Part shown: positions 4,107 to 56,989 of the stretch, one piece after another
Layout: each line of letters starts with the position of its first letter
How positions within the stretch are numbered: the stretch's first letter is position 1
From: Bryoerythrophyllum caledonicum
Taxonomy: Eukaryota > Streptophyta > Bryopsida > Pottiales > Pottiaceae
Assembly: GCA_963971425.1 (NCBI GenBank)
Contig: OZ020519.1
Coordinates: 25,274,786 to 25,338,785, forward strand
Direction of reading: 5' to 3'
DNA: 64,000 bases
Notes under the pieces: generated by a model
Seen by the model: only the letters and a program-made list of their open reading frames with translations
Database searches by the model: none
What the model was told of the DNA's origin: nothing
Translations under genes and position numbers: made by a program

Positions 4107-4118
4107 AGTGATCCCAAG

Positions 4119-31061: not shown

Positions 31062-31230
31062 TTTTCATTGTTTTCCACTTCTACTACACATGGTACAGCC
31101 TGTTCGTTGCTGCTGCTGCTGTTGTTGCAGAAGAGCAGCAGCGTCAACGGAGGCAATGGAGTAATCCAACTTTGCAGGATGAAGATGTCCCCATTCGTGA
31201 GATTCCCGTAGCAAGAGTCGCTCTCAACTC

Positions 31231-34385: not shown

Positions 34386-35182
34386 CGACTTAACTTGCAA
34401 TTAGTCATGATACAACAAATCTGTAAGAAATGAAATGAAGTAGTGAAATTGTCATGTTTCACAAAGTTTCAATGAAACAAATGAAGTAAGCAAACTGCCA
34501 TGAGTGGCCCTATATCGCAAACCGAAGCTACAAGGAAAGCACTGTACTGAGAATGCTGACCTGCTTGACTATCTTCAAGCCCTTAAACACCATATTCGTT
34601 ACATTGGGAGATTTAGCGACTCCCAAATTAACACATGTAGAACATAAGAGCTAAAGTGCACATCTAAACTTTACACTATGGATGGATATGAGTTTCCATT
34701 AAATTGGGAGGTAATATTCACTACAAAAATCCCTAGAAAAATAAGTACTACGGTTTAGGGTTACATTACAAATCTAACTATAATATTGAAAAGAAGAACA
34801 CATTAGTCAACACTTCTTTTATACCACATGTGTTCATTAAATATGAATAGCTAAATATTCACACTGAAGCCTTAGAAGTTACAAAATTCTCTCGAACCTA
34901 CTAACCCGGATTAACACCATGCTCCAATTTAGCTAAAAGTGAACTCAATGACGGACATATAGCCACTTGTAAGAGAATTCACTAAACATATTCTAATGAG
35001 CCTTTTTTTAATCCAAAAGAATTTCAGTTCACCTTGTCGAATACACATTGGCTAAAAAAAATAAGTAACGAGTTTCAAATGATGGTGTTCAGAAGTAGAA
35101 AAAAAGTTGCACACAGTAGCTCTCTTTGAACTAAAGTGTCCCCATCACATAGAGGTGCAATTAACTCAAAAAAACAATTACA

Positions 35183-35210
35183 CACACTTTAGCTCCAGTT
35201 GACCTAAAGT
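35183..35210. repeat. Palindrome of the AGCTC family, left subterminal
   Basis: ACTTTAGCTCCAGTTGACCT with the symmetric outer arm AAAGT. It is the only copy on the left side of the DUF7869-type gene. Confidence 0.5.
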
Positions 35211-35521
35211 ACAAACGAGCATTTACTTTCTATCATTTACCATGAAGGCAATTACTGGTGTTATTGGTTTCAAGATTAGAAGCAATTTACCACATTGTTA
35301 TTTTAAAAAAGAAACAAAAACATACTGCAAATTATCACTGATACGCAAAAACAATGGAGAGAATATTTCATAGCAATCATTGGCATTTGATATAGTCATA
35401 CAGAGTGTAATCGAATACAAATATCTATAATCTCAGCACCAATGGATCTAACCATACTATATGAATATCACGCATCAAAATCCAAAATCTAGGAAAAAGA
35501 AAGTCCATTTATCTAAGTCTA

Positions 35522-38351
35522 TTACGATTCGGACCTGGCAAGTGCTTCCAAGGAGGCCTTGATAATCGCTACTTGACCCTTCACAATTTTTGTAGTTGAA
35601 TCTTGTACATGACCTCCATTCCTCTTTGAAGACCTAGGTTTCCATGTTGTCAAGATTGAATCGGTATTCTCCCACGTTATGGCTATCCCCTTTTCAACTG
35701 TCCAGCGAAGGTTGCAATGTGTATCCCAGTCTTTATAGAGCTTCAAAACATCCCGATTGCGCGATATAGGGTGGAAGAATTGAATATGGACGGTGTTTCG
35801 AATATACAAGTTAGATTTAGGATATGAAATTGCTTGAGCAATCCAAAACGGGCGCTCGTCTCCATCACAAGGCTGCAATGCAACAAAATAGCGAGCAAAA
35901 AGATCACGACCAACTCTAAAAGAAGGAGGTGGATGATCGTGTCTCTGGCCAACAAAATGCTCATCTTCACGGTACTCCTCGTGAACCTCACCTTCCGTTG
36001 AGAACTCATCTTCAATGGCATGTGCAATTCGCATCGTTGGCCAAAAGCCGTCTTCCAATGATATCCATTGGAAGAGTCAGAGCATCTTTAACGTCGTACC
36101 AATAGTATGATAGCGGCTCAAAACATGATCTGGCTTCAACAGACTCCCACAATGATTGCTCCTAGTGATCGATGAATCCTAAAAGTCTCTTCACCACCTC
36201 AGCGAGATGCCGCATCGTAGAAGGCTTCAATGCATCAGGTTCTCCGCGAGGCCATAAAGCCTAGGCTTCCTTCAGAATCCTCCTTCCACAATTTGATGCT
36301 ACTACCTTCTCCTCCCTTAGGAAGCCAATCCTCATCATGACAAAGGATTTTATACTTCATTACCGGACAACCGCTTGAGTCCACATAAAACTTGAATTGA
36401 TGAGCCTTCGTATGACCCTGCAAAGCTTCATCACCGTCCGTAATCATATCCCCAATGAACTTCTTAAAGTCAAGAACCTCTTGGATGAGATGCGGGATTG
36501 TCGGAACACTCTCATTTTTATGAACGACCTCATGAGCAAAGGAATGGTTGGAAAACTCTCCTTCCTCAGTGTCATACTCCAACGTCCAAATAATGCATCT
36601 ATATCATCATGTGTATGACCAACTAGCATGAAATTAACATATACCCCACGGAAGATGCGTTTTGCAACAAGGAGAGAGCAAAAACAAAAAACAAATCTAT
36701 TTTTTGTTATCACCAACAGCATTGTCCATTTGCACGTTCAATATTGGAGGCAAAGGCCTCCTTGGAATTGGGATATCTGGAATCTGCCCTAATGGATCCA
36801 AACACATCTCTACACCTCGTAATACCGCCGCATACAATGGATGAGAACTAGATTTTGGAAAGAGATGCCAAGACAATGACTTCGGAGGCGCCTCCAAGTC
36901 ATACAATAGTTTTGCGAACGACTCGACCGTGTAATTGGCATCATGGGATTATAAATCAAGGCCGTAATGGGCGTAATGCAGGTCCACATGACCATGGGCA
37001 AGCATGCCTTTGACTGTAAGATGCAACTTCAAAAGCCCATCTAAGTGCTTTGTTTTATGTGAAAAAATTGGGGAGGCGGTCTTTGAGTGATCCATCTTAT
37101 CATGCATGATGGTTAGGACCTCCTGGGACGACGACTTTGATCGAAATCGGTTCAGGTAGTACAAGTCCCGATGTGGGAAAGTAGAATCGATGTGAACCTG
37201 CATCTTCTTTTGCCATAGCGGTGATGCTTGTATTCCAGGTTGAGTAAGCTTCTTCTGATCCTGGTATTTGTCACACGTAGAACAACGGGAAAAATTGTCT
37301 CCACCTTTCTTGGCATAGTACTCAGGGAAGCTCACTCGCCGAATCTTACTCAAGCTTGAGGTTGAGATTGGTGGCAATCCACAATCAGCGAGATGATCAT
37401 CAAGAAGCCCTATCTAATCCTTCCAGTTAAAACTTGGAGGAAAGACCTTTGCCACAAGCTTCTCGCCAGTTGGAAGAACACGAGACTTGTGAGGCATGTG
37501 GTCCTCATGTCTATTGAGGATGGCTCCAAGAGCGATAGTAGCCACAACCGTATGACCTCTAGGCTTACATAAACCGGTTTTCCCATGGTGTTGAGCCGCA
37601 TGACCAGCGGCAGCGTCCTTTGCATTCCGATAGAAAATACTCGAACTTAAACCCATGATTTTCATCCACACATGGGCACAAACGTCCACACCCTCTAGGG
37701 TCACAACCTTCCTACCCGCAGCGTTTCTATGAAACTGTCTATGAACGTCGAGTTTGGAATGATTTCTGAACTGCACAATGGTCTAATTGTACAAGCGCGT
37801 TCGGAGGACTTTTATATTATCACTAGGATAGTGTTGAAAATAGTTTTGAATGCAACAACTATTGCTCGCAACTATGTTAATGGAATGAAGGGTCATGAAG
37901 AATTCAGCATTCCTGGACATTGTTGGACGTGTATTCCTTGAGGAATTGTCGTACGAACGGGAGCTCCCACCTAGAGGTTTGTTACTCTCAACCAATCAGA
38001 CATTATAAACGTCCCTAAGGTGATGATGGAAGAGACTCACACCGTTAAAAAAGACTTGTTGAATTGGCCAGGACTAAAACAAGTACCTCCATTCATTAGG
38101 AGCTTCCTCCTGAACAAAAGTATTAGACACCTGTACTGCAACATTAGAATCCCCAAGAGGACCAGAGGAACCTAGAATTGCACTGGTCCGGACATTGCAA
38201 ACCAACCACTCCACAACGCAAACACCCGAACCATTGTGAAGCGAAACAATCATTCCAACCCAGAGACGGCGAGGAATAACATCAAACTCAGGAAGGTCTG
38301 GGTTCACCGGAGCGTCAACATGAACATCGTCGTCCTCCAAAGACGACATCC
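35522..38351 (-). pseudogene. DUF7869-type transposase-like gene, broken
   Basis: Reading 38351 to 35522: an exon starting after acceptor AATGCAG with MSSLEDDDVHVDAPVNPDLP, a 120-residue frame (37776-37414: VDVCAHVWMKIMGLSS, KPRGHTVVATIALGAI, MPHKSRVLPTGEK), then CSTCDKYQDQKKL, IMHDKMDHSKTASPIFSHKT, LNVQMDNAVGDNK and NFMLVGHTHDDIDALFGRWS. A C-terminal domain with PFWIAQAISYPKSN follows. The HDKMDHSK, QMDN and GHTHDDID motifs match the DUF7869 family seen in many plant and animal element-borne proteins. In-frame stops (TAG after NWKD, TAA after GLDL) and at least two frameshifts (an A6 run near 36700, and at the W-S-M segment near 36575) inactivate it. Function is unproven; an RNase H-like DDD fold is my inference. 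Confidence 0.6.
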
Positions 38352-38530
38352 TGCATTCCAATGAGATAAATATTAGAAAGTCCTTCCAATAAGTATGGAC
38401 GAATACCTTGTAGGAATGGACATCAATGAAGAAGCATATGAAGAGGGTAATTAAGCCCAAATCGAGGTAAGGTTTGGCGCTTGAAAAATAACTTGCATTC
38501 AACTGAATTGACATCGTTGAAGAGGCAAAT

Positions 38531-38552
38531 TTAGCTCGACTCGAGGTAAAAA
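38531..38552. repeat. Palindrome, single copy
   Basis: TTTAGCTCGACTCGAGGTAA core. It lies in the presumed first intron or leader of the DUF7869-type gene. Confidence 0.7.
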
Positions 38553-38684
38553 CATATGGTATTATATGACAAGAATACAATTTCATGTCATCACTTTTAA
38601 TACGAAAATGAAATAATCTCACCCTTGACAATGACATTTTAGCCCGACCCGACCTGAAATGTTGACTATTAGAAGGTATGACAA

Positions 38685-38941
38685 TTTATCTCGAGTCGAG
38701 GTAAACTGACGTAGAAAATAAGGTATGATAGTTTAGCTCGACTGGAGCTAAACTGCCGTTGGAAATAAGGTATGATGGTTTAGCTCGAGTCGAGTTAAAC
38801 TGTCGTTATCAATATCGTACGACAATTTAGCTCGAGTTGAGCTAAACTGTCTTACCTTATTTCCAACGACAGTTTAGCTCGAGTCGAGCTAAACTGTCGT
38901 TAATAATATGGACTAACACCTTAGCTCGATTCGAGCTAAAA
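38685..38941. repeat. Tandem array of six palindromes, 47-bp period
   Basis: Palindromes sit at 38685-38705, 38731-38754, 38778-38800, 38823-38846, 38866-38900 and 38920-38941. The best is symmetric from ACGACAG to CTGTCGT with core TTAGCTCGAGTCGAGCTAA. Linkers repeat as well, some inverted: GTTGGAAATAAGGTATGAT at about 38758 and its near reverse complement at about 38850. Confidence 0.85.
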
Positions 38942-39109
38942 TGTCCTTCCATGATTCTTGGCGTCATTTTCGGGCTTCATATGGAGAAACTCTGCAGCCT
39001 ATGAATCTGCCTTTCTGTATACTAGAACCCAAATCTTTGCGTTAGACGTCAAGAAACTCGTAGTGATGCTTCAAAATCATAGTAGCAACTAGAACCAGTG
39101 CAATAAGCA

Positions 39110-39480
39110 TCATTGTGACATCCTAATTGCTAGAATACACGGAGAATGCAAGAAGTAAACTTTGTGTACCTTATGAAGTAGACAACCGGTGCGTTGTTGC
39201 CTCGCGCAAGCGCCCTGCTCAACCGTGCGCAACCTATAAATGATGCCCTCCTCAACCTCCCATAGTTGTACCACCTCCAAGCCTCCTTCCCACCATCCTC
39301 GCACAACAACCAAACTGAGAAGGAAAGAAATGAAGAAACTGGGCGAGGTTTGCCGAGGTCAGTCACGGACACACGACCGTTTCAATTGCGGGCTACGATT
39401 TCAGAATTGGCGGGAGAAAAATTTTCCACAGCCCCTTAAAAAGTGCAAATTTGAAATCTCGGAGGGAAATTGAATAAACT
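39110..39480. other. Unassigned GC-richer stretch with antisense open frames
   Basis: Two overlapping minus-strand frames of 67-80 codons and a plus-strand frame of 77 codons are present, with a CCTATAAATGATG element around 39232. This may be the promoter or first exon of the minus-strand DUF7869-type gene. No homology was recognised. Confidence 0.2.
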
Positions 39481-39561
39481 ATTTTCTGGTTGACTAAAAT
39501 AAGGAAGAGTACATACCTCAAATATACTCGCACATGCAAGTTATATACACGTAATTGTGGG

Positions 39562-39700
39562 ATTCAGGGTTAGGATAACGTTTAGGGTTAGGATTAGGGT
39601 TAGGATTTAGGGTTTAGGATTTAGGGTTTAGGGTTTAGGACTTAGGGTTTGGAATTTAGGTTTAGGTTTAGGATTCGGGGTTTAGGGTCCTTGGTTTAGG
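39562..39700 (+). repeat. Interstitial telomere-like TTTAGGG repeat
   Basis: About 140 bp of degenerate TTAGGG/TTTAGGG heptamers and hexamers, the plant telomere motif. It lies inside transposon DNA, away from any chromosome end in this window. Confidence 0.9.
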
Positions 39701-41104
39701 TATTATCGTTCAGATGATATTTCATTTCAATTTAATATCACTTTGAATATTCCGGATATTGAAAATTTAACTAAGGTATAGGAAATGTAGAGAAGATATT
39801 GAGATGATTAGAAAGAATTTATATTACAATCCAAATAGGACTTATCTATAAAGTTGAAAGCAAAGACCTTAACGAACGAGTAGCATTAAAAAAAACAAAA
39901 AACAAATTCTATGTGCACGTGTATTTTGAGCAAAAAAGTATGTATTCAAACATGCTTTGGACATCATTTTTTTGGGGTTTTTAAAAAGTGCATAAAGTTA
40001 CTATTTTGTAATCAATTTAGAATGTTCATTCTTTTGCAAGAATCCAAAGTGTCCCCATGGTCTGGATTTGGAATTGAAATTGGTTATTATCCACTAAGTA
40101 CTCAAAGGCTGAAAATGTTCGCAAACTAATAGTTGGATTAAAATATCTTATTCTTGAGTTCACATTGTATCATCATAAGTTTAGGGTGTGACAATCTAAG
40201 CATGACATGAAAGATGGAGGAATTCTTGACCATACACAATTTATTTCATGTTTTGACGTGAAATTAAAGACTTTGTCATTTGTAAAACATAGAGAGTGGA
40301 ACAATATTAAAAGATTTAAACAAGAAATGGAATGACCTCTTCATGACAAAACAAGGATAATCAAAATATAAAATATAACTAATACAAAGTGAATCACTTA
40401 GTGCATCAAGCATAATTTAATGTTCATAATGTAAGTAATTTTGAATTTATTTATACATGCAAAAAAAGAATAATTGGTTTTTGAGCACGTTCCAGTGGTC
40501 GCAAATTATATTTTAAATTCTCCAAATTTTGTAGAAGGATGATAGAAGTCATGAGGCATATTATTATGTAATTTATTTTCTCATTGAACGTCTTCAATAA
40601 AAGTCATGCTAGCCAAAAGAGGAACTTCTCGATTGCCAGCACGTCGAGCAGTTTAAAAACCTTTTGCTATGACACACTATGGAATGTGATATTTTTAATA
40701 AATAGAAGTAATATTAGAACGTTTGATATTATGGAAAAACATGTTATTTTTCTAGTGAAAAATAAGATTATATCCCAATTCATACTTTTTCACACATTGT
40801 CACATACTTTTGATTTAGGGTACCAAAAATACTTAGACTTCCTATCCACTAAAGACTAGGAGATCGTCATATTTTTTTGCTTTTTAATATTACTATTGGA
40901 GATTTAGGTCTACATATTTTGAAAATCCTTTTAAAATTCAAAAGATTTCTTTTTCACCTTGTGAAATACTTAACCATTAAGAGAAGTACGGAGTTCAAAT
41001 TGATTGTTTGAAGAAGTGGAAATACACATTGCACATACATCAGCTCGGTTTTTAGCAGAGGTGTGCCCCATCACTATGTGCAATGAACTAAAAGGAGTGT
41101 GTGC

Positions 41105-41206
41105 ACACACTTTAACTCCAGTAGTGCTAACGTGTGCCCCATCACTAGGTGCAATGAACTAAAATGAAAATACGCACAATTTAGCTCTACTAGAGCTAAA
41201 TTGTGC
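41105..41206. repeat. Two palindromes, right subterminal
   Basis: 41105-41136 is degenerate (ACTTTAACTCCAGTAGTGCT). 41174-41206 has perfect 15-bp arms (GCACAATTTAGCTCT and its complement). Confidence 0.75.
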
Positions 41207-41699
41207 ACCATCACTAAATGGAGTGGATTAGAAAGCAAAAATGCATTATGTAGCTCCAGTACACACAAGATGGCTTCTAGTATAGTGGACACTAAATAGG
41301 AATCCATACACTAATTGTAAAATTTACAATATGTGTAGTGACAAAACTATATTACACTAAATGTCAACTACTACACTAAATGTCAATCCTAGTAAATAGT
41401 GGAACATAAAGTTTTTTACTTGTGGACAATTACTATATGAAACCTTAATAATGATTTGATTACATCATGAGCATCAAAGTAAAGAAGGGTTGAGTGCATG
41501 TAGAAAAACAAGAATTTGCAAGAAAGAGCTTGGGAATAATAGGACGTAGGTATGGAGCAAAAGGAAAATCTCAAAAATTGAACAAAGTAGAATGTAAAAT
41601 ATGGAGGGAAAATGAAACTACAAGTAGAAGATTGGAAATATAAGAACATTCTTTTGGGAACGAAAGTGAGAAAAGAAAGGAATATTGGAAAAGGAAAAA

Positions 41700-42110
41700 A
41701 CTTAAACATACAATAAATATAGAAATACAAGTAAAATATTCATTAGATATCCATCACATATGCATTCAATGTGCATTACATATTCAGTAAATATTCATTA
41801 AATACTCATTGAATATTCAAATACACATTGATTTTACATTAGAAATTTATGCACTATTCATTAATTATTCATTAACAATACATTAAGTATTCTATATATA
41901 ATCATTAAATATACAAATATTCATTAAATTGTCATAAAATATACTTTTAAAACTTTAAAGATTCATTAAATAATATTGAAATATTCTTTAATTGTTCATA
42001 AAAGTTACAGATATACAAATATACATTAAATATTGTATAAAAATTCATTACAAAGTCATTAGTTATTGGCTAAATATATGATTATACATTAAATATTCAT
42101 TAGATAATAT
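41700..42110. repeat. Degenerate ATTCATTAAATA low-complexity repeat
   Basis: Extremely AT-rich stretch built from repeated ATTCATTAAAT-like units. No gene. Confidence 0.7.
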
Positions 42111-42400
42111 TAAATAATGTAAAGGGAATGCAAGAGATGGGAATGAGAATAGTTGTGGATAAGATGATAACAATTTGAGGTTGAAGATGAGACAAGAAGA
42201 ATACATGCATGGCAACCGGTAGGTAGAAGATTCTAAGCTAACACTATTTATCAAGTAACAAATTTGTGTGCTAGGGTAGAGTTTTGATTGAAGGCTATTA
42301 CAAAATGAACTGCAGTAGGTGAACGAATGAGGGATAATGTTTAGGACAATGGCGGCTAAAACTAATTGCCAACTTGTTGACAAATAGTGTACTAGAAAAA

Positions 42401-42796
42401 GAGCATCTCTACCGGGGCATAGGGTCCGGGAGAAATGAAAGAATGCAGGAATAAACACGGTAAAGCCCACTCCGCGAGGCCCAGGCCGGTGTCTCGGCCC
42501 ACTGGGGTGACGGCGCCGGTTCTTCTGAATAGTAAATTTACAAAAAGTACAGGGGACACCAAAATTCCCCGGGAGCATGTGTTCAATCATGTAATGACAC
42601 GTGGGAATTAAAAAAAACAATAAAAACCCAAAAGAATTTGGCCAACTACGGCGTCAGCGCCGGGCGCTGGCGTTCCTCCAGAATGGCCAATTCGGGGACG
42701 GTGCGAGGGGGAAAGGGTAACCCCCCTCCCGTCATCTCAAACTTGGGCACCTCTCCCCCTAGCGTGGAAAATTCCTCGTCAGGGGTGGAGATGCTC
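42401..42796. mobile_element. Small non-autonomous TIR element
   Basis: Ends are GAGCATCTCTACC (42401-42413) and GGTGGAGATGCTC (42784-42796), inverted with one mismatch. The interior is GC-rich and contrasts sharply with its surroundings. No transposase is encoded. GAGCATCTCCA-type termini are frequent in plant MITEs. No target-site duplication could be fixed. Confidence 0.65.
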
Positions 42797-42858
42797 TAAC
42801 TACACTATTTGTACGGTTACACTAGAAGCAAAATGAAGTGAAAAACAAAGAAAAAATT

Positions 42859-42959
42859 CACACTTTAGCTCTATTAGAGCTAAAGTGTGCACCATCACTA
42901 AATGTAGGGAACTAAAAGAAAATATGCACACTTTAGCTCCAATAGAGCTAAAGTGTGCA
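42859..42959. repeat. Two palindromes with long perfect arms
   Basis: 42859-42890 and 42925-42959. The second has symmetric arms from TGCACACTTTAGCTC. Both are followed by the sequences seen after the 41.2-kb copy (GCACCATCACTAAATG after the first), so this is a second subterminal region. Confidence 0.8.
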
Positions 42960-43079
42960 CTGCCATTTATTTTAAAATTATACTATTTGAAGATGTGGTC
43001 TTAACATACTTATTGTCTATTCGATTCTCATAGTAAATAATATCAAACTCACAAAAAAGAAAAACTTGAATTCAAAGTA

Positions 43080-43540
43080 ATAGAATCTTAAATCGTAGCT
43101 TTAAAACTCTCTTAAATGTGCTTCACCCCTCTCAAACACGTAAAAACTGGTGTAGGAGGAACTTATATATAACGATGGTAATGAATCTACTCCTTGTGTA
43201 AAGCAAAAATTGAAATCGAGTCAAGTCAGAGCAAGCTGATCCACTTAAAGCATGAAAGAAAACTAAACACTCTAATCCTATTTCTAACACTAAACACTGT
43301 AATTGTTCACTTCTGTGCAATCAAAGTTTGTGTATTATTGAGAAAATGTCAATTTATAAGTTTTAATTGAGATCATACGATTGAAATTAGAAATAATCAC
43401 TTTTCTTTGCTTCCTGCTCGTTGCCCCTGAATAAGCAAATTTGTAGTGTTAATGGCTCAGATAAATTGTGTAGGAAATTTACGAGTGCAAAAATACTAAA
43501 CTCGCGTAATATCTTGAACTTAGCCTAGTGAGATTAAATT
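43080..43540 (-). repeat. R1 repeat, inverted copy
   Basis: Recognisable R1 blocks in inverted orientation: GGTAATGAATCTACTCCTTG, then a degenerate GATCCACTTAAAGCATG segment. No gene. Confidence 0.5.
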
Positions 43541-44335
43541 TACTTCTTTAATTCCGGGTATCAATATTGAAGGTTAATGAATTGTGGTGCATCCAAAACG
43601 AATACCCGAGGGTATTACCTCAATATCGCAAAGAGTATCCCGAGGGTATCGTGGGAGCTACACCGCTACAGGAATTCGTCCCTCCACGGCTTTAGGTGCT
43701 CGAGGGTGTACCCCACAAAGTCGTGGCACGAGTCTCGAAACCCTCACTGTTCTGTGCATGCTTTGTTGCTGTCATTGTTTGCGTTAGACTTGTGAGTTGT
43801 TCGAGTTGTGAGTTGTTCGTGTTGTGTGCGTTAGAGTTGCCGCTTGTGTTCGTGTTGTTTTCAGAAGGGTTTGCTGAGTTTGTAGATGTTGTAGCGTTAG
43901 AATTTAGGGTTTGTTGCGCAATTTTTCTGCAGCACTTTGCTGTCCTGCGGAAAGGATTTGTAGGAAGTGAGGATTATTGTTGTGTGAGTTTTTTAGCACG
44001 TAGAGTTAGAAACGGTTGTGCGCGGAAGACCGACGTGAACGAGGAGCAAGACCTGCAGCAAAGGAGTCGGATTTCTCAATCTTAAAGGTAAGTGCACACA
44101 TTCATGTTTAAATGCAATGTCTTGTATTGCTTTTGATATATGTATAGTTTGGTGGTTTTTTTTGTAGTAGTGTTTTATGTGGTTGTATTTTCTGTTTTGT
44201 GGCATTTTTTGTGTCTCCAGTGCTATTGATATACGTATTGTCTTGTGGAATTGGTGCTATTTTCTGTCGAAGTGTTGATGCTAGTTAGGTTTTTTTTTAA
44301 AAATTTGGTTTCAATGTGTTGCTTTCAATGTACTG

Positions 44336-44425
44336 CTTTGTGTTCAATGTGCTGCTTTTGATGTGTTGAATGTTCAATGTGTTGAAACGTTCAATGTGTT
44401 GAAACATTCAATGTGTTGCTTTTTG
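44336..44425. repeat. Short tandem repeat GTTCAATGTGTTGAAAC
   Basis: About five degenerate units with a TTCAATGTGTTG core, within a probable leader intron. Confidence 0.75.
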
Positions 44426-44725
44426 TTTAGGTTTCTCTGTGGTTCTGCAGTCTATTTGCTTCTGTGTGGTTGTATTTTTTGTGTGCATGTTGTTTTTTTT
44501 GGTTTTGGAATAGAGTTATTGGTTGATGATTGTGTGTGTGGGTTTGTTATTGTTCTTGCAGGACGTCTAGTTCCAACAGAATATTACTGGGATTAAATTT
44601 CATAATCAATGGCTGAAAGGTAAAATCCATACTCTCACCCAGGAGCCCTAAACCCTACGCCTTGAATATCATATGACGGAAGACAAATCTGCACAAATTG
44701 TAATAAAATCAGCATTTCGATCAAC

Positions 44726-44962
44726 ACATTTTAGCTCGAGCCGAGCTAAAATGTGGCCAATAGAGCACAATATTGGCTCCACTTTAGCTCGAGTCGAGCT
44801 AAAGTGCGGCCAATAGTGCACACTGTTGGCTCCATTTTAGCTCGAGTCAAGCTAGAATGCGGACAAAGATGCATTAGACTAGTACACTTTTGCTCAAGTA
44901 GAGCTGAAATGTACCAACTGAATGCGTCTATGGTCGCACTAAAGCCCGACTCGAGCTAAATA
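44726..44962. repeat. Tandem array of five palindromes, about 52-bp period
   Basis: Located at 44726-44754, 44780-44806, 44833-44859, 44883-44913 and 44940-44962. The first three keep symmetric outer arms (ACATTTT, CACTTT, CATTTT). The linkers carry their own dyad, GCCAATA with TATTGGC. The array lies in the intron after the short ATG exon of the ParB-like gene. Confidence 0.85.
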
Positions 44963-45029
44963 GATGATATTATCTACTCTCAAACCCTGTCTCTCAAAAA
45001 AAATATCTTTCTATTCATCAAAGCCAACA

Positions 45030-45056
45030 CACTTTACCTCGAATCAAGCTAAAGTA
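45030..45056. repeat. Palindrome, degenerate
   Basis: ACTTTACCTCGAATCAAGCT with outer arm AAAGT, same intron as the array at 44.7 kb. Confidence 0.6.
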
Positions 45057-45387
45057 TAAAACAAATGACTTAAACCACAACTCAAACACCACTACTTTCG
45101 GACCTAAAAACATGCCAGAAGTAAAATTTACTGATGATATCGATGACACAACTCATGTCTACTTCTTGTTCACCTCTTAGAAATCGTGCATGATTTTAGT
45201 CCCGCTCCAACCACTTGAGAACCTGAAAGAGTGAGGTTCGTGAGTGATTGGATCGGTTCGTAAGCTTTTCCACAATTTCAGGAGTTGAACAAGAAGTAGG
45301 CATGAATTGAATAAAAGGGTCTAGGAAAGTCTTCCAAATGAATATTTAATGTTGCAGAGCTGTAATGATATACATTATATTTTATAA

Positions 45388-45415
45388 CACTTTAGCTCGA
45401 GTCAAGCTAAAAATG
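45388..45415. repeat. Palindrome
   Basis: ACTTTAGCTCGAGTCAAGCT followed by AAAAATG, same intron. A separate direct repeat with a CTCATGTCTACTTCTTGTTCA core lies at about 45156 and 45474 on either side. Confidence 0.7.
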
Positions 45416-46851
45416 AAGCATCAGCTTGAATACAGCAATGTTACCATCGTGTAATTGCAGTCTAGTATCTCAACTCATGTCTACTTCTTGTTCAGCTTCC
45501 TGAATCGTGAATGAGCTTCAGTCCCGTTCCAACCACTTGAGAACCTCGAAGTGTTTGGTCAGACCTTTGCTGGTGATATCGTTGGACCCCAACACATTGA
45601 CTTCACGACCAAAATTACTGATGTAGTCCACGAAGATAACGAGCACGTTAAGTTGTCGTGTGTGACAACCACCAATTTTGTAGAGCCTTATATGTTTACT
45701 ATTGTAGTGAACAATGTTTCATCTCCCTTCTATATCCACGATTTAGTCGATTCTCTTAGGGCGTCCAAATTTGATGAAATAGTGGCTTAGGTCGACCACA
45801 AAATCTCACTAATGAAATGGGAGACTAGTAGTGGTCAGCCGCTGAAAGCAAAGGTTGTAGCGAATAAACTCCGCGTCATTCTATAGAGAATAAATACCTT
45901 TGCCGCTCTGAAGAAGGCAAAAATAATCGCAGGGAGGCGCCCGATAGAAATTTCAATAGTTTCGGGGGCCGTGACCGGGAGTCAAGAGTTGAGTCAAGCG
46001 TCGGTACCGGTTGAAACACCTGGCGCAAGAACGAGTTGAAGCACCTTGTGCAACACGATGTCTGCTTCCCCCGTCAAGAAGCGCTCAGCTGCCAAGAAGC
46101 CGGAGACCTCTTCGAGGAAGAAGATGAAGCTCCTATTAGAGGAGGAGTTGGCCAATTCGATGGCTTGTGCACTCTCGGAGCTCCCTCAGGCGCTCGGGTA
46201 CGGAGAGACAATCGACTACACCAACGTCCAAGAGATTTACCAAAAATTCTGGACGGAGTGTTAGAGTTGCTTCTTCCACGAAGACAGAGAGAAGAAGTTC
46301 AAGCTCGACGTGATGAGGCTGCATAATGCATCGCCAGAGTGGACGATCCGTGCATTCGAACCTCGGGGCATGGAGGAGTTGATGCATTATTACATCGAAA
46401 TGCCCGACAAGACGCAGAAGCAGACTCTCTACGTCATGCCCAAGCTAGATGTTATGCCAACAAAGGTTGAGGACCTCAGGGACTACGTCTACTATATCAT
46501 CAACGGCCAGCATAGCGTTGCAGCATCAAAGGCGATGATAAACGGCAACGTCCCGGAGATAATGAGAAAGCACTTCCGAACATGGCAGTGTTACATTGTC
46601 TGGACGGAGGATTCGGAGAAGCTGAGGAAGATATCCGCCTATTATAATCGCGTAAATCACTTGGTCCAATTCAAGCCGACGTGGGCAACCAATATCCTCG
46701 GCTCTCGGGCTTTGTGGATCCAAGCTAGGAGACCAATGCCGAAGCACTCCGCTGCGGGCATTCGCGGGTCTCACGGGTCAGGTCGGAGAACTGCACTGGA
46801 GATTGCCAATGACAAGAAGTTTGAGGTAATACTCCTTAACCAAGGTCATAT

Positions 46852-46976
46852 ACGTTAGCTCGACTCGAGCTAACGTGCATGTTTGCTCACTATCTGTATA
46901 GTCTTGTATATAGATTCAAATCGCTTATATTGTATACTCTCAGGTTGCAAGTTAGCTCGGCTCAAGCTAACTTGCA
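46852..46976. repeat. Two intronic palindromes
   Basis: 46852-46876 has outer arms ACGTTAGCTCG and CGAGCTAACGT. 46946-46976 has outer arms TGCAAGTTAGCTC and its near complement. Both lie in the intron 46826-47053, and their outer arms differ from each other but stay self-complementary. Confidence 0.85.
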
Positions 46977-48433
46977 GTTTCCGGACCCTGCTGGACATGT
47001 TTATTTTCTACTGTAATTATAAATTGAATTGACCCTGTTTATGTTCTACGCAGCCATTTCTAAGCGCGGTTTGCGAGCGCTTCACAATAATCGACGTTGC
47101 AAAGAGCGAGGTAGTGCTCATGAAAGCCGGAAAGTCGAAGGAGCTCTTGCTTACGAACGAGGTAAAGATCATCCGCGACCAATGAGACCTTCAAGCTCTG
47201 GTCAGATGTCATCTCTTCGGCGGCACAGGGTAACCTCATCAACGTCGATTCAACTTTGACGCCCTTGGCAAAGTTCAAGGACGCCAAGTCTTGGCTCCCA
47301 GAGAAGGATGGGGTGCTGACGTGCGAGTTCTTCAAGTTTTTCGGCAACATGACCGAGGCCGATCACGTGAAAATGTGTAAGCACATTCTCAATCGATCAG
47401 GCCCACTGCGGAGACTGCCTTACCGTAAGGTGGTTGTGAAGCAGCCAAATTTTGTGCTGGAGGATTGCTACACCGCCCGAGACTGGGTCGATCGGAGGAA
47501 GAGGAAGGAGGTCGCTCGAATGGAGCTTCAAGTAATCAGGCCGGAGCTGGGCCTCTTCAAGAGCGCTGGAGCGTACAATCGGGCCAACTAGCGGAAGTTC
47601 AAAAAGGACTACAACATCAGCAAGGCTTCAAAGCGTGCCCTTTTGGATTGAGGTCCATTGGATTCGTACTACGCCAACTCGAGGCAGACGGAGTTTTGCA
47701 ACTGCAAATGTGAAGATCTCTCTCCATATGCTAAGGAGTTCTTCAGAGTCTTCCTCGATGTGCGGTCGCAGTTTGTTCCACCGCTAGGGGCCTTGCACTT
47801 TCGTTCGTACAAGGCGGTGACAAATTCGCTCAGCACGTGGCCTTTGGATTCGTGGCGCAACCAAGGTTGCATCGTGAAGCTCGGCATCATTGACTTCCGG
47901 AACATCCCTGGTTTCTCTGGGAAGGCAAAGTCGTCGTTGGATAAGCCTTTCTTCGACGAGTTCATGACGATGTTCGCATCGAAAGGGCAGCCCCCCTTCA
48001 CCGGTCTTCCAACCTAGCTCTTCATTTGCGGCGACGAGTAGTCCCAACTTCAAGTGAAGGCGTTTGTTGAGGGCCCCTCGTTGTGCCATGCGTACGATGT
48101 GCTGCAGTCGAAGTATCTTCCCTCCAAGAACGAGCGCTTGGGGGGATTCGCCCCAAAGAGCAACAATGCTCTCGACCCTACTGGCCTCCTCTTCCTCTTC
48201 AAGAAAGAGCTCACACAGATCTCGGCGGTGAAGAAGACCTACGCAACTCCGAAGCATGTGCTGCACACCAAGCTTCGCAAGAACAACGAGCTAGCGTACT
48301 CGATGAACATGAACGAGCTGAAGATGGAGTTCTTCATCAAGGTCCTGGAACTGTTTTGCAAGAGGGGGGAGGCAGTTGTCCAACTGTTTTGCGGGACAAA
48401 AATACTAACGGCGAGTGTGGTAAGTTTCCCTGT

Positions 48434-48679
48434 AGTTTAGCTCGAGCCGAGCTAAACTGTAGATACCTTCCTAAGTCGTGCATTGATTGTTTCAGACTGG
48501 TTTTTCTTATGCTTTTTGTAGCATTGCACTTTAGCTCGAGTCAAGCTAATGTGCTGGCTTAGACTTAGATGTTTTTGTATAGATGTTAGCAATCACGTTG
48601 TGTCCTTTGAAGTTAAAATTGCTGGGATTTAGTATTTGTATTGCTTTGCATTCACTTTAACTCGATTCGACCTAAAGTG
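48434..48679. repeat. Three intronic palindromes
   Basis: 48434-48458 (arms AGTTTAGCTCG), 48535-48554 (TGCACTTTAGCTCG with partial complement) and 48653-48679 (CACTTTAACTCGA with TCGACCTAAAGTG). All fall in the intron about 48420-48706. Confidence 0.85.
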
Positions 48680-49761
48680 TTACTTATCTAATCCATTGGT
48701 GTCCAGATGTTGGATCTTGAGGCATTCTGCATCTCCCACGACACCGGTGAGCATGACCTCAACGACGCCGTAGAGGTCCCGTTGACGTTAGATAGGGCCG
48801 ATTTCGTCGTTGGTGTGTATCATGTCAACGGGGAGATCTTCCCCGAGCTTGGCATGGCCGTTGCTAAGGGGAAGGGAAAAGCAAGTATTGACCTCGTCGA
48901 TGAGGAGGAAGATGTGGACTCGATCCCCCTGGATGTGTGCCCGAGCTCGAGCACGGCCACTCCGAAAGATGAATCCCATGACGACTTCAATGACGCCACT
49001 CCGTTGGAGTTTCACAGTGGCTCTCAATCTGAATCGGGAGACACAATCGGTACGTCGGGGCAGCGACTCGAGTTCCTAGAGTTGGATTCCCTAGATATTT
49101 CTAAGAGGCCTCATTCAGCTCCCACCTTGGGCGGGTCATCCGCTCGTCCCGCGGCCAAGAAGAGAAAGGTCGTCAGCGAGAGCGGTCGCTCTCCGTTGGC
49201 TTCGGCGAGCAGTGCTCAAGACGACAACAGGTTGATCACCCTCGAGAAGAAGCTCGAAGAGGAGGCCACCCATCGGAGGTTGATGGAGCAGCGGCTGGTG
49301 GAGCGTGACGAGGAGCTCAAGAGCCTACATCGGAGGCGTGACGAAGAGATGAAGAGGGACCAAGAGTAGAGGCATGCTGACATGATGCTCATGCTAGAGA
49401 GATTCATGTCGACTAAGTTGCATGTTGTCGCCACGACACCATCTGCAGTTAATGCTACGATCTCCCAGCCTCCCCTCTCAACAGAAGAAGGGACTAGGAC
49501 TCTGTCCCACGGTTCGATGCTGCCGTCTCCGGCGGGTTCCTCCCCCGTCTCCATGGAGGCTCAATTGCTTCTTGTTCCTCCATCCTCGTTGAACCGCTCA
49601 TCTTCCCTTCCGAAGTCGCCCGCTCGGGACGTATCTGTCGAAGATGTCCCCAGCTCATTGTCAGGTTAGTATAACGTAGTTGCGAGTGTATAGAGGCAGA
49701 ACATTTTGTAAATGTCTAATTTTGTACTCCAATTTTTTTATAAATATTACAGTACTCAACA

Positions 49762-49790
49762 GCACTTCAGCTCGACTCGAGCTAAATTGC
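49762..49790. repeat. Intronic palindrome
   Basis: CTTCAGCTCGACTCGAGCTA within the intron about 49665-49869. Confidence 0.75.
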
Positions 49791-50280
49791 TTGACATGTG
49801 ACGACTCTGACTTGTATCAGTGTCCTATGTGCGCATCTGCTGATAGGTTGAAGTTGTTGAATTTTTCAGATCTAAGTTTCGGTGATGACGCGATTGCTCA
49901 CCCAGTCATAGATGAGGTCGTCCAAACTGCAGTCCCAGTCGTAGAAGAGGTCGTCCAAGCTTCAGCCATGCTCGTAGACGAGATCAATCTTGATTCTGCT
50001 GTCCCGGAGCCACCTCTTCTTGTCTCGGAACCGTGCCCCCAAATGGTTGTGGAGCACTCGGAACCCTTGGCAGCATGCAGGGTTCGTTGCGATTGATGGG
50101 GGTCCTAGACGAAATGTTGCAAGACGATGAAGTTCTCAAGGTATTCTTCTAACACTTTCCACACTCCACTCTCCTCCATGACACCCCTGGTTTGCCTCTT
50201 TTGTTCTACATTTTGTTGACCCGTCGTTGTTAATGAATCTTTAGTAATATTGTTTGTTCTCCTGGCATTTTCGAACCAGG

Positions 50281-51650
50281 TCTGCGAGGCATCAATAAGT
50301 GGTGCTAGTAATCTAGAAGAAATACCTAGAGTCCTATCAGATTTCGAAGGCAGGTGGTTGAATGTTGTGCTGGACCTCAATGGGATTCTATGCATGTGTG
50401 AGCCCGCGTGGTAGGCCAAGAGATTCAGGAACTCTGACCCATCCATTCACTCGGCTTCGCTGCCAACCAAAGTAGACCCTAAACTAGTCCGAGTGCGCCC
50501 AGGTTGTGCTGAATTCCTCACGAAGTTGTCTAAGTTTGCCATCATCACGATCTGGAGTTCGATGATGACATCTACAACACATCAGATGTATAAATATCTT
50601 TTTCAGCATTGAACTTCGTACCCTCTCAGGATCTTTGGTCAGGAGAATTGCGATAGGATTCCCGAGTGTAGAGTCGGTACCACAACAATCTACATGAAGG
50701 AATTTGGCACTCAAAAAGACATCTTCTTGAAGACGTTATCGTACCATCCCTTTAATAGGTTGGGTCGTGAGTATACCCCGACGAATACACTTGTCATTGA
50801 CAATAGCCCGATTAAGCACATGCTCAATTTGCCGGAGAAAGTCCTACTTCCATCATGGTCGCACAATCATGATGGCGCCAGAGAGCATTCGGTACTACTA
50901 GAGGAATTGCTGCCATATCTCTCTGACCTTCATCTATTTCCGAAGGGTCTAGCTCAGTACCGGGCCGAACATCCCTCGGGTCAGAAGATGTTCTATAATG
51001 ATTAGAAGACGTGTGGTCAATCTCCGAGTATCTAGAACGCAATCCAAGCGTCTCAGAATCTCCCCTCTTAATGTCGTTGAGAACGCTTAGATCTCTATTA
51101 CACTTCAGGTCGGATAGAGCTAAATTGTATCGATTGACTACAGCTCCATTTTGTAAATTTTGTTGGGCCATTTTTTGTGTATATATATTTTTGATAAATG
51201 AAACCGAGATGTTTCACCACTTTGTTTGTTGTGCGGATTGAATACCTACTGCTGATGGAATGTCGTCCTGTTTTGAATGATTGGAATTTTCATCTATTGT
51301 TCTGAGGTATGTGAGCATCACTTTGGTTGAAATTTCTACAGGACTGTGATTGTCGGGCGTCCGTAGATTACTTGTTGGGCCCTGAGGAGTTCGTCCTTTC
51401 CCTTTGGAGTAAAGGGCTTTTGTTGCACTCTACTGCAACCGCGCAGTCAACCATGGATTATTCGACCATGGCAGTGGACGACGGAGTTGTTGAAAGCCCT
51501 ATTGTGCGGGAGCCAATTCATGAAAGGATCAACTCACCTTCGCCATAGTGGCCTCGTTCAGTTCCAAGGTCTCCGTGTCAGAATCCGGATATTTGTACTC
51601 CCGCAAAGCGTATTCTTTATGACGGTTTAAGGGATGTAACTTACCCTCGC
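50281..51650 (+). pseudogene. FCP1/NLI-interacting-factor-like HAD phosphatase segment, broken
   Basis: A single frame from the acceptor at 50280 reads WLNVVLDLNGILCMCEP (motif I region), VRPGCAEFLTKLSKFAIITI and NTLVIDNSPIKHMLNLPE (motif IV region), then HSVLLEELLPYLSDLH. This is the FCP1-homology layout. The second Asp of the DxD motif is Asn, and the DD of the last motif is DN. Stops interrupt it at 50412 (TAG), 50610 (TGA) and 51003 (TAG). A further exon probably starts at 51343 (DCDCRASVDYLLGPEEFVLS). It may be the C-terminal part of the preceding gene: an upstream exon MQGSLRLMGVLDEMLQDDEV (donor at 50139) reads straight into it, but is one frame off the 49.9-kb exon. Confidence 0.5.
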
Positions 51651-51849
51651 TCGCTCACGGTGTGTGTTATGCTCACCTCCAAGTTATTGCACTATTGAGT
51701 CGTTCTTGCCTAGGCAATCTTAGTTTGTTGTTGAGCTACATTGCACTCATGTAGGTTTGCTTCATTTGAGCTTATTTTGATTCGTTGGATGTTAAACGTG
51801 CTCTGTGAATTTATCCTTCATCATTTTAGCTCTATTTGACCTAAAGTGC
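51101..51849. repeat. Two degenerate palindromes
   Basis: 51101-51128 (CACTTCAGGTCGGATAGAGC) and 51823-51849 (TTTTAGCTCTATTTGACCTA), both between probable exons of the FCP1-like frame. Confidence 0.55.
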
Positions 51850-51889
51850 ACTAGGATGGATCTTAATGATACAGTTTTCATGTGTGCCA

Positions 51890-53122
51890 TGTAGGAATAT
51901 TCGACCTAGAGTGGATTTGTTTGGGTTGTATGTGGCACCTATTGTGCAGGAACCATCTGGTAAATGTCTCCGCCCCCGTATTCTCTCAAGAAATACTACT
52001 GAAAACAAATGCTCTCCTTCAGCTCCCACCCGCCGACACTCGCTGCCCAAATCAAACACTGACGAGGTGCGTAGGCGGGGTTTGCAGTGTCTTCTAGAGA
52101 GTCCATTAATGTAAGAGAATGGCACAACATGGACTAGGCAACGTCAGAGGGCTTTTTTGAAGACGCATATAGAGGCTTATGGAGGAACTCCCTAGACCAT
52201 TCAATTAGTGATAGGACGATTGTGTTTTGCCTTGGGATAAATGAGTGTTGTGTGTGACTTTTTTCATGAAGTTTTGAATAAAGCTTGGATTAATGGTACA
52301 TGCTTCCTTTACCGTTACCATTTTTTTGGACATTTGGCTAATTTGGTCCATCCATGGAATGAAATATAGTATTCTTGGTACATTGTCTTTATGCTTTGCA
52401 CCTACAAATGTCTATATATATTGATACTTCAAAGATCATATATCTTCAAAGTCATGGAAATCTCCCAATATAACGAATATGGTGTTCTTTGTGTGCATAA
52501 ATTCAGATAGCTTAGTGAATTTGAAATGTCGACTCATGCTTGCCGAAAAGTACGCATGCAACATTTGCAAAAGCGTCTCAATTTTTGCAATCATCGGTAA
52601 ATGCGTGAGCGTCTTCATGGCCAAGTTTGTTTTGTTACAAGTTTGTTTTGTTACTGAAACGGTGAACGAAGCAACGGTGTCCTAAATGAGCTTGGTAACC
52701 CCCCCTCTTGATCTCTACGCAGAACAAGGTACAATTTAATAGAAAATTAGAAGTTCTTTCGCAATGGCTGAGTAGACCTCTTAAAAATTTTCAGCTCTAG
52801 GTAAGAAAGAAATATGCTATATTAAAAACAGAGAGCAAAAAGGAGGCCCACATCAAAGGATCATATAGGAAACGAAGCAGAGTTTTCAAAATTGTTTGAA
52901 GTTCTTCTTTATAGCTATTCTATAAATTGTTCTGGCAACAAGATTGCAGTGCAAAATGGTGTACGAGGTGTATCAAATGAGGCAGACAACTTGAAGAATG
53001 AGGTCACCGTGAACATACGTCCTTCATCAATGAATGAATCTCACACATAAACCACAACATATAGATGCATCCACACTGAAAGCATCACTGAATCATCCCT
53101 ACACAATACATGATCACTGAAT
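51890..53122. other. Unassigned DNA after the FCP1-like frame
   Basis: A possible last exon after acceptor GTAG (51893) reads IFDLEWICLGC. Beyond 52.1 kb I see no supported gene; the stretch is AT-rich. Confidence 0.3.
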
Positions 53123-54017
53123 TCATCCCCACACAAGACAACTTAGCCATGGAGCAACATAAACCAAAAACTTCACCACACAAAAGATGAGAAACACAAA
53201 ATTGGAGTTGAAGTACCGAAAAACCTCTGCAGTGTCTGCCCCAAATAATATCCACTCGCATTGCATGTCTCCCCGAGACATGCCACCCTTACCCTTGATG
53301 GCATCGATAATGCAAATGGCCAGCTTTGTAACGCTAGCTCCCTCCGTTAAATTCTCCAAGGACAGCAGTAATCATGCACAACGTAAGCATGAATGGATAT
53401 CCAGGAGACGTTGTCAACCGTGGTGACCTTGTGACAAGTGATTGCAAAGTAGCTGCAGGCCATCACTTTCTCTAAATTAGTCTTCAGCACTATCTCTTTC
53501 TGGATATTCAGCCATTGTCCACCCAACCGAATTGCTCAAGTGCATGGGGCTCAAGTGAGTAATCTTCAAAAATGTGAACATGCCTTGTAACTCTCGTACT
53601 CCAGCATGGGGCGACCAGTGGACAACCGGTGGAATATTGTTGCGACGTGTTGTATCTTTCGCTCCTTCTCTCCATTCACCTCGACGTTGACTTGTTCAGC
53701 TATACTTGGCCGATTTATCATTTGCGTATCCTGCACTGTCACGGTCATGGCAGTCTTGTTCAAATAGACGTCGCCCTTCTTCACCCCAAGTGCGGCAGAT
53801 CCTTCTCTGCAGTGCGTTTCCCGACGTGTTTTTCAAGGGTGTTCGTCTTCGGGCCCATGGTGAATGACCTGGCGTTAACCTGAGTGCAGATCTTGCACCA
53901 AACCTTGTGGACAAAGGTGTCCCGCTCCCCACGCACCATCTCTGTCCACAGATGCTGGAGCGCCCAAGTGTCCAGGCATTTCCTCGTGATCTCGTAGCTC
54001 TTAGATTCACTGCACAC
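53123..54017 (-). pseudogene. hAT-like transposase remnant, N-terminal half (BED-type zinc finger)
   Basis: Reading 54017 downward: FVHKVWCKICTQVNARSFTM with LEKHVGKRT (a BED-like C-x2-C-x(n)-H finger), then KKGDVYLNKTAM, then SVTKLAICIIDAIKGKGGMS and CEWILFGADTAEVFRYF. These are the successive N-terminal landmarks of plant DUF4371/ZNF862-like hAT-derived proteins. Frames shift between the pieces, so it is dead. The gene continues, in family order and on the same strand, at 34.39-33.79 kb. The first codon lies only a few bases from the start of NAC duplication copy 2. Confidence 0.6.
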
Positions 54018-55395
54018 AATATTAAATCATAAGTTGTTCGTGTAAAAAGATCATATTAAGACTTCAATGTTATGTTACTGCTGATTGTGTATGTGGAGGA
54101 GGTGAAAGTTTTATTAAATGAATTATGTGAAACCTCATAATATTGCTCGTTTTCTGAACATGATCAGGGTTTATGAAGTTGATGACACGATGGCCCTGAT
54201 GTTCAATTGAGCAGACTGCTTTTACAATCTGAGTCACAGAAAGTTCTTATTGGCGGCAATCAAAGAACACAAAACATGGTACTGACTCATAAGAAGTGGC
54301 ACTGCATGAAAGGACTTACATCGAAGTCCGCCTCCAGAACTGCTGTGAAACAAACTGCCAACAAACCATACAACAACGTCGTACAGACTTCCAACAAACG
54401 GTAGAGACCGCCAAACAACGATACGACAATATGGTACAGACTGCGGACAGATAAATTTCTCTATTCCGATGATGCAAAACGACATGCTTTCTGCTACAAA
54501 CTTCATGCAACATGCACATGAAGCTACTCCATCCAGATGTCGAATAACCCAGTTCATTTCACTACTTCAACAGGGTCCAGAATGGTATCACTGTATGTTT
54601 CTCTGTATCTATGGAGACAAGCTTTTCATATGACTAAATGCTGGTGGCAGTCACCATTGAAGAAAGCATCTACAAGGTAAGGGTGTATGCAGGAAGTAGA
54701 ACGGACACCAAAGAAGGGTTCCTCATCAACGATCCTGATACCTACATTTCTCACTAGTACTGTTTCAGCTTCGTCGTGAAGGCCACGTTCTGACTACGGC
54801 CAAAGTATGCTGCACAAAACTTTGAATCCACATGGTCAGGGACTTGGGGCGGCCTTCGAAGCTTGAACTTGAACAATGGGAGAGCACACTTTTTTGTCGT
54901 GAAGGGTTTCTGAAAAGTATAGGCCTTGTATCTGTGACTTGGAGCTAACGTCATTGAAAGTGACCGCAGGCCTCCGCTTACTTCTGATCCTATTCATGCG
55001 GTCCTCACAAACTATCAGAAACTTTCCGTTCATTTGGGTTTTCGTAGACTTTACTGACACGAACTTGGATGTAGTTGATATTTGTACATATTCCGAGTGG
55101 CTGTGTTTTGGCTTCCTTGAGATGCTGGGGGCTCGAGAAACCAGGGTTGGTTTCTGCACTTGTTCGCTTTCGCTTCATGATTTCGATTAGGCCTCCTCCC
55201 AGAACAGAACCAGGGCTCTTTCTCATTTTTCATTGTTTTCCACTTCTACTACACATGGTACAGCCTGTCCGTTGCTGCTGCTGCTGTTGTTGCAGAAGAG
55301 CAGCAGCGTCAATGGAGGCAATAAAGTAATCGAACTTTGCAGGATGCAGATGTCCCCATTCGTGAGATTCCCGTAGCAAGAGTCGCTCTCAACTC

Positions 55396-56106: not shown

Positions 56107-56989
56107 TGCTTCCCCCTCAAAATGCACTAAAACCCCTCCTTCGCTAGGGCCTAGGGTTTAAGCCTCGATGGACAAAACCAAAATAAAGCCGGCAGCCTCC
56201 AAGAGCAACAACCCTAAGAAAATTACGTCCCCTCCGCCGATTAAAAACAGCAACACACGCCCGCTTCCAACAAACTCCACAATCCGCACACAAAATTTGA
56301 TCAAATCGCGCCTTCTCAAGAAGAGCCACTACCTCCACGTCCGCCTTCACAACACCCTCGAATTCTTCAGCAACAACAGAAGCGAAACGGGAGAGCCACG
56401 ACGCAGAATGCACCAAACCCTAGCACGACCTCTGGCACTCCGACGTGGGCTCGCTCCTCGTCCGCTCACCCTCCACCTCCCTCGCCCTCGCCGATGCATC
56501 ACCTCGACGCTTCCGCCTGCTCTCCTCCTCGTCCGCCTTGAAGATGTGAACGATGTGACCCCGAAGCGAGCAATTTATAAGAGGCTCCACAAACACAGAC
56601 AGCGTCGTTCCAACGCAGAGAGCATGAGACGATTGTGTCGGCACAACTTGGCTTCATGGTGAAGAGTGAGACTGGAGACAGGATAGCCGTCCGATGAAGA
56701 AGGCAGGACCGTTGGATGCGAGAGGGACTTCAGATAAAGTGCAATTAAAGGGAGACTGAATTAAAGGGGAAATCGGTATCGGACCCCCAAAGCCGTGAGG
56801 CTTATGTGTGAGTCTTTGTGATCTACGAATGGAAGGTTTCTTTGGGGTTGGTTTTGGGTGATTCGGGACTTATTGTTGAAGGGCTTGTACTAAACTAATC
56901 TTTGAATATTAGACGCTTATTATTAGGACCAATTCGGGCTGGTTCCTATTGACTCACTTTTGATCTTCTTTTTTTTTAGTTTTTTTTTA

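Follow-up and report, generated by a model that had tools for sequence, protein, structure and literature searches.

Results

The window analysed here, a stretch of 64,000 nucleotides of the moss Bryoerythrophyllum caledonicum (assembly GCA_963971425.1, contig OZ020519.1, positions 25,274,786 to 25,338,785), contains a decayed two-gene moss DNA transposon of about 17.9 kb (17901 bases), which hosts a family of short imperfect palindromes, referred to below as dyads. The element is bounded by a left terminal inverted repeat on the plus strand (34586..34614) and a right one on the minus strand (52458..52486), which are complementary at 28 of 29 positions. When the two sides of the region were compared for inverted matches, this 29-bp pair was the only outstanding one, and the window holds just these two matches to the terminal repeat (0 expected). 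A stretch of 25 bases of the right repeat, with one base changed, also bounds a 157-bp miniature found elsewhere in the genome (L028:9438-9594). Thus, inverted terminal repeats surround transposase-like genes and a miniature derivative exists, as in a DNA transposon. The flanking bases, CTTA/CTTT in the window and CAGC/CAGG at the miniature, are inexact as target-site duplications. The left repeat continues into a small hairpin (TTGGGAG...CTCCCAA, 34605-34627), while the right end is without such a hairpin.

The two genes of the element are divergent. On the minus strand, tblastn with moss homologues located a decayed gene for a putative transposase at 35525..38349, with 5 in-frame stops in 38349-36703. 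Two pieces of it match PF25273 (DUF7869; E 9.8e-08 and 2.6e-20), and the named proteins among the best 120 of its 240 relatives come from Ceratodon and Physcomitrium, so that the label of a DUF7869-type gene given in an earlier note on this DNA holds. The DUF7869 proteins share the motifs HDKMDH, DNxxxDNKNR and GHTHDDID, which look like those of a DDE-type transposase. On the plus strand, tblastn blocks delimit the coding part of the second gene, also decayed, at 45515..51690, with exons at approximately 45462-46825, 47054-48419, 48707-49664, 49870-50138, 50281-51066 and 51343-51690, the last borders being approximate. Near the end of this coding part lies a NIF/FCP1-type phosphatase domain (PF03031, E 9.8e-15). 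The canonical motif of FCP1-type phosphatases is DxDx(T/V); in the window (50281-51066), as well as in the moss copy L002 described below, it reads DLNG. The frames read contain 14 in-frame stops, 11 TAG and 3 TGA, and the 11 TAG stops would fit decay by deamination of methylated CAG sites. Relatives of the second protein numbered 31 in one search and 101 in a search with a shorter length; the named moss proteins among the 31 have 1,042-1,548 residues, and several are labelled FCP1-homology.

DUF7869 and NIF were the only Pfam families above the cut-off in the element proteins. The second gene had been called ParB-like, a name for which neither Pfam nor NCBIfam gave support: no ParB domain was found in the element proteins, and the NCBIfam match to DGQHR (E 0.0085) is below the cut-off and lies off the NGQHS motif. 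Profile searches against the PDB returned nothing significant, and neither the dyad pattern nor three protein alignments revealed relatives among the viral contigs scanned.

The core of the dyads, TTAGCTCGAGTCGAGCTAA, was found with up to 3 mismatches at 23 positions (44 strand-matches) in the window, with 0 expected from 100 dinucleotide shuffles. A relaxed scan requiring at least 11 matches at 16 fixed bases gave 52 matches, of which 30 were retained as dyads, judged by eye on position and symmetry, and 22 were discarded; three of the discarded matches score 13 (35433, 38452 and 51756), while two retained dyads score 12 and 11 (38639 and 41250). Both counts confirm the more than 20 imperfect palindromes reported before. 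All 30 retained dyads lie inside the single transposon. Free of any such selection, all 31 matches scoring at least 13 fall within 35116-51844, and the 10 scan matches outside the element score 11 each. Each dyad comprises a core of 19 bp and symmetric arms; read from the centre outwards, the half-site is TCGAGCTAAANTGTG, with positions 3-9 mostly fixed and position 11 free.

By place, 8 of the 30 dyads precede the start codon of the DUF7869 gene, in what is probably a 5' intron with an acceptor TGCAG|GATG at about 38350, 2 past the end of the DUF7869 gene, 5 between the genes and 15 in introns of the plus-strand gene. Many are arranged in arrays with periods of 47 and 52/53 bp or in pairs 68-73 bp apart. 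The two in the 3' flank of the DUF7869 gene, at 35116..35134 (degenerate, from the relaxed scan) and 35189..35207 (from both searches), extend the range of sites of 38531..51849 proposed earlier, which was slightly too narrow. The probable 5' intron holds a dyad at 38531..38549 and an array of seven with a period of 47 bp (38639..38939; starts at 38639, 38686, 38733, 38780, 38827, 38874 and 38921), in which the spacer 38827-38874 is inverted. The intergenic dyads form a group of three spaced by 69 bp (41112..41268; starts at 41112, 41181 and 41250, the last one degenerate) and one of two spaced by 68 bp (42865..42951, relaxed scan). An isolated half-site, GAGCTAAAGTGCA, on the plus strand near the left end (34648..34660, 10/12) could be due to chance, as five equal-scoring matches lie outside the element.

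Six of the eight introns placed in the plus-strand gene carry dyads (7, 2, 3, 1, 1 and 1 in introns 2, 3, 4, 5, 7 and 8, respectively), and introns 1 and 6 hold no retained one; splice dinucleotides were inspected for introns 1-6, and the borders of introns 7 and 8 are approximate. Intron 2 (44622-45461) contains an array of five spaced by 52-53 bp (44731..44959; starts at 44731, 44784, 44837, 44889 and 44941) and, from the relaxed scan, dyads at 45034..45052 and 45392..45410. In intron 3, one dyad with outer arms ACG/CGT lies about 30 bp past the donor (46855..46873), an intron whose dyad is also found in other moss copies, and a second one, again from the relaxed scan, has outer arms TGCAAG/CTTGCA (46952..46970). 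The scan, together with the splice dinucleotides, assigned the dyads at 48437..48455, 48531..48549 and 48657..48675 to intron 4 and that at 49767..49785 to intron 5. The relaxed scan also gave those of intron 7 (51105..51123, degenerate) and intron 8 (51826..51844). The earlier statement of six carriers among seven introns, with one to seven copies each, is therefore borne out, with eight introns now placed.

The blocks homologous to coding sequence in tblastn cover 7443 of the 17901 bases of the element, and none of the 30 retained dyads is exonic, as had been claimed; with the 16 clusters of sites taken as independent, such avoidance has a chance of about 2e-4. Three of the 52 scan matches do touch a coding block. 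Those at 36783 (score 11) and 47511 (score 12) are weak and were discarded, and their frequency is about that of the background in the remaining window, whereas 48657 comes into contact only because intron 4 (48420-48706) is read through in one Ceratodon gene model.

The arms of the dyads were said to covary, and at the outer positions they do so, to a modest extent. Across positions 10-16 of the 30 dyads, the two arms of a site agree in 133 of 210 cells, versus a fraction of 0.50 when right arms were shuffled (best of 5000, 0.60) and of 0.48 between clusters. Pairing is significant at position 11 (19/30 versus 8.7 expected, p 0.0002), position 15 (16/30 versus 7.7, p 0.001) and position 2 (20/30 versus 13.8, p 0.0008), weaker at positions 10 and 14 (p 0.028 and 0.038), and the signal fades by positions 16-18. 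When each cluster was represented by a single site (16 sites), it was reduced to a median p of 0.005 for positions 10-16, 0.025 for position 11 and 0.085 for position 15. Most core positions give no covariation signal because they hardly vary. An excess of pairing at positions 22-26 (61/150 cells, p 0.009) is attributed to a second symmetry axis within the arrays. In a chosen set of 22 well-kept sites, a choice that flatters the result, 51 cells were changed on both sides versus 21.6 in shuffles, and 8 pairs showed two-sided changes versus 6.7, a number reached in 72 of 500 shuffles. The paired change of the inner arms (CTCGA/CTCTA) is confined to two sites, 41181 and 42865. Finally, the spacer 38827-38874 resembles the spacers 38686-38733 and 38733-38780 in inverted orientation (identity 0.82 and 0.86) far more than directly (0.54 and 0.46).

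Dyads recur in other moss copies of the element, which are 38-65% identical to the second protein of the window. Many open reading frame predictions of these copies run past the donor of intron 3, and their tails hold the translated dyad (SSxRAK, LARxELN); strict patterns for the peptides gave 13 and 7 matches in 252 proteins, versus 0.03 and 0.08 in shuffles. Of 83 anchored proteins, 49 had tails long enough for back-translation: 26 match 17-18 of 18 core bases, a further 10 match 15-16 and 13 match 14 or fewer, while none of 123 coding control windows exceeds 15. The core type, as read from the peptides, tracks the protein tree with 6 changes versus 21.9 in shuffles, a difference inflated by near-copies. 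Such clustering is what joint inheritance of site and protein would produce.

Two further sequences (L001 and L002) came from a scan of prokaryotic contigs. They are records of the metagenome-assembled genome (MAG) AVDCRST_MAG81, titled a cyanobacterium, that encode this moss gene and, like L018 from the same MAG, presumably represent moss contamination, to judge from what they encode. The exons of L001 and L002 are open, with one stop, at the gene end, in the last exon read. Of 17 matches one weak one was discarded, and all 16 remaining dyads are intronic; at positions 10-13, 47 of 64 cells are paired versus 36.7 expected (p 0.0024). At position 8 of the half-site, A occurs in 55 of the 60 half-sites of the window and G in all 32 of L001 and L002, in both arms. 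L018 contains an open DUF7869 frame of 944 codons, 75% identical to protein P0001, with 8 matches of at least 13, which are located outside the frame on its upstream or downstream side, and one match of score 11 inside it.

Within the source genome, we sampled 18 stretches of 10 kb, 2 of them adjoining the window and the other 16 taken at fixed positions. Only one core match of at least 13 was found in them, inside the miniature L028:9438-9594, and none in the 20 kb directly flanking the window. The miniature has perfect terminal repeats of 25 bp, with one base changed with respect to the window element, and a single perfect dyad with arms of 16 bp, and it carries no genes. Another stretch, L022, contains a diverged sister element (496-8715) with a DUF7869 gene and, on the opposite strand, weak matches to the second gene (best E 2e-6). 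This element has its own dyads: its introns and flanks contain 13 whose core, GTCGGCGGNCCGCCGAC, is a different one (shuffles give 0.03). None of the 13 lies in coding-homologous blocks, and the three at 927, 5898 and 7181 fall between matches to exons. The other 170 kb sampled hold no GTCGGCGGNCCGCCGAC core.

Two further features of the locus were noted. The transposon sits between the copies of a tandem duplication (29813-32608 and 54011-56758, 93.9% identity) with a NAC-like gene, so named from its open reading frame, and a degenerate telomere-like run of TTTAGGG/TTAGGG repeats occupies 39560-39690, between the transposon genes.

Discussion

We observed terminal repeats, confinement of the dyads to one transposon, their recurrence in other moss copies, a core change in both arms, covariation of the arms, one inverted spacer and a miniature that has a dyad. 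The dyads are probably family-specific, two-fold-symmetric recognition sites for one or more putative dimeric DNA-binding proteins encoded by the element. The binder could be the DUF7869 transposase, but the second protein, with its FCP1-type domain, is the likelier candidate. The sites would be spread over introns, intergenic space and flanks because exons cannot carry them, and would mark the element for the action of its own protein, most likely in keeping it unsilenced and transcribed, as VANC does for VANDAL, or else in assembly for transposition, with each subfamily having its own core. Among the options raised in the earlier note, that of transposon binding sites in an unusual internal layout is thus the one best supported, by the terminal repeats, the confinement, the recurrence in mosses and the sister element's own core, while the other two, hairpins and mobile palindromes, found no support.

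Two causes would act jointly on the dyads: binding would select the core, and polymerase template switching between the arms, by recopying one arm from the other, would keep the arms around the fixed core complementary and could at times invert the spacer between dyads. The view that paired change reflects either selection or a copying mechanism was fair, and the spacer inversion seen among the dyads points to template switching. Homogenised arms and inverted spacers are reported marks of this process (PMC8604942), and the template-switch evolution of inverted repeats is also treated in PMC8794818. The moss dyads resemble such repeats in their copied complementary arms and in the inversion of a spacer; template switching accounts for the arms and not for the conserved core or its placement.

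From the observations above we infer protein binding, the identity of the binder, its purpose (anti-silencing or transposition) and the template-switch mechanism. Several points weigh against recognition by an element-encoded protein. Pfam and NCBIfam scans detected no DNA-binding domain in either element protein, and the FCP1-type domain may be non-catalytic because its DLNG motif departs from the canonical one. A single miniature could retain a dyad by chance, with a probability of about 12% by site density. Since the GTCGGCGGNCCGCCGAC core was read from the hairpins of L022 itself, the count of 13 in that element is partly circular, which does not apply to its absence elsewhere; the pairing of the outer arms in L022 is suggestive (p 0.06). 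The terminal repeat of the window was found neither around L022, for which no terminal repeats of its own were found, nor in the MAG from which L001, L002 and L018 come. Among the intron-3 tails, the 13 of 49 that score 14 or less overlap with the controls, and the 26 good ones include many near-copies, so that they do not count as 26 independent cases. Covariation in L001 and L002 reaches p <0.05 at individual positions 10 and 12 only, and part of the clustering of core types on the protein tree simply reflects linked DNA being inherited together.

The strongest competitor, a possible though not the favoured account, is that the dyads are transposase sites for excision and the pairing of ends that have spread inwards, like the TNPA sites of En/Spm. 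It overlaps with recognition by an element-encoded protein and differs in the purpose of binding only, so that the two are not exclusive. The half-site near the left end, the retention of terminal repeats together with one dyad in the miniature, and the DDE-like appearance of the DUF7869 motifs would all suit it. Against it, most dyads are kilobases away from either end; about 0.5 kb separates the left repeat from the first dyad, and about 0.6 kb the last dyad from the right repeat. In CACTA (En/Spm) elements, TNPA binds subterminal repeats and the terminal repeats begin with CACTA. These elements and the moss element are alike in being large plant DNA transposons with terminal inverted repeats and repeated short sites, but the moss dyads are found in many introns and not mainly in subterminal positions. 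Membership in CACTA was rejected, as the shared ends of the window element and the miniature read ACCATATTC and not CACTA.

Hairpins formed in the pre-mRNA, acting in splicing, small-RNA silencing or RNA binding, are an unlikely explanation. Dyads are indeed common in introns and often come soon past the donor, as in intron 3 of many moss copies. At the gene-assigned sites, however, arm positions 1-15 show 24 G-U versus 25 A-C mismatches in the sense strand, and RNA pairing is disfavoured as the selected property because the mismatches show no G-U strand bias. Moreover, the 30 dyads include 5 in the space separating the divergent genes and 2 in the 3' flank, a perfect dyad is present in the gene-less miniature, and 34500-52600 gave no Rfam match at or above a family's gathering score; this option of the earlier note is therefore unsupported.

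We consider it slightly less probable still that the dyads are functionless inverted tandem repeats whose symmetry stems from template switching alone. The arrays of 47 and 52/53 bp, the pairs 68-73 bp apart and the inverted spacer are what such repeats would leave. Against this, copies with 38-65% protein identity keep the core while differing in their outer arms and spacers, each of the 16 dyads in L001 and L002 carries the identical core change in both arms, and in the sister element a different core occupies comparable places. Independent mobile palindromes inserting into introns, to which the scattered copies with differing flanks might be ascribed, are very unlikely and were rejected, since the dyads as sampled occur only in this transposon family (the sole sampled match of at least 13 lies in a miniature of the same transposon), different moss copies have the same introns occupied, and the site-specific flanks are inverted, where insertion would leave direct repeats.

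The closest known system is that of the VANDAL transposons of Arabidopsis. According to PMC5735166, the sites for VANC21 are found in the introns of VANDAL21 and in its intergenic and terminal non-coding parts, occur as tandem repeats and differ between families; VANC proteins induce the loss of silent marks (PMC10398659). Both systems combine a dense, short, family-specific motif confined to the non-coding parts of one transposon family with tandem repeats that evolve together, and related families have different motifs. The earlier assertion that no described plant repeat behaves in this way was too strong, given that the VANC target arrays are similar in placement. The likeness is incomplete, and this also speaks against our proposal: the motif of VANC21 has 9 bases in one orientation and changes fast, whereas the moss sites are dyads, not same-orientation motifs, with a core long conserved across distant copies. 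The genes of the moss element, of DUF7869 and FCP1 type, are unlike those of VANDAL, and its binding is putative; VANA/VANC-type proteins were not found, as judged from Pfam hits without direct comparison to VANC.

Bacterial parS sites are bound by ParB. The moss dyads resemble them in being dispersed palindromes next to a gene, here one that had been labelled ParB-like; membership in a ParB/parS system was rejected, as no ParB domain was present in Pfam or NCBIfam and nothing bears on partition. DUF7869 was absent from the papers of the library searched, in which no description of DUF7869/FCP1 elements was found, and literature listings on moss transposons with FCP1, anti-silencing, new superfamilies and palindromic systems gave no match. 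We tentatively suggest that the element may belong to an undescribed moss superfamily in which an FCP1-phosphatase-like protein would recognise palindromes in its own introns and act on RNA polymerase II or chromatin, with the core reset in both arms in each lineage and the arms maintained by template switching.

To our knowledge, the VANDALs of Arabidopsis are the main documented case of anti-silencing that is encoded by a transposon and has dispersed target motifs. If the recognition of the dyads by an element-encoded protein is true, mosses would have a system that arose independently and whose symmetric sites recur at the same intron positions, with cores specific to each subfamily, and the co-evolution of a transposon protein with its sites would become testable in plants that are easily transformed. 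The moss dyads also offer a way to separate structural selection from template-switch copying in DNA that does not encode RNA genes.

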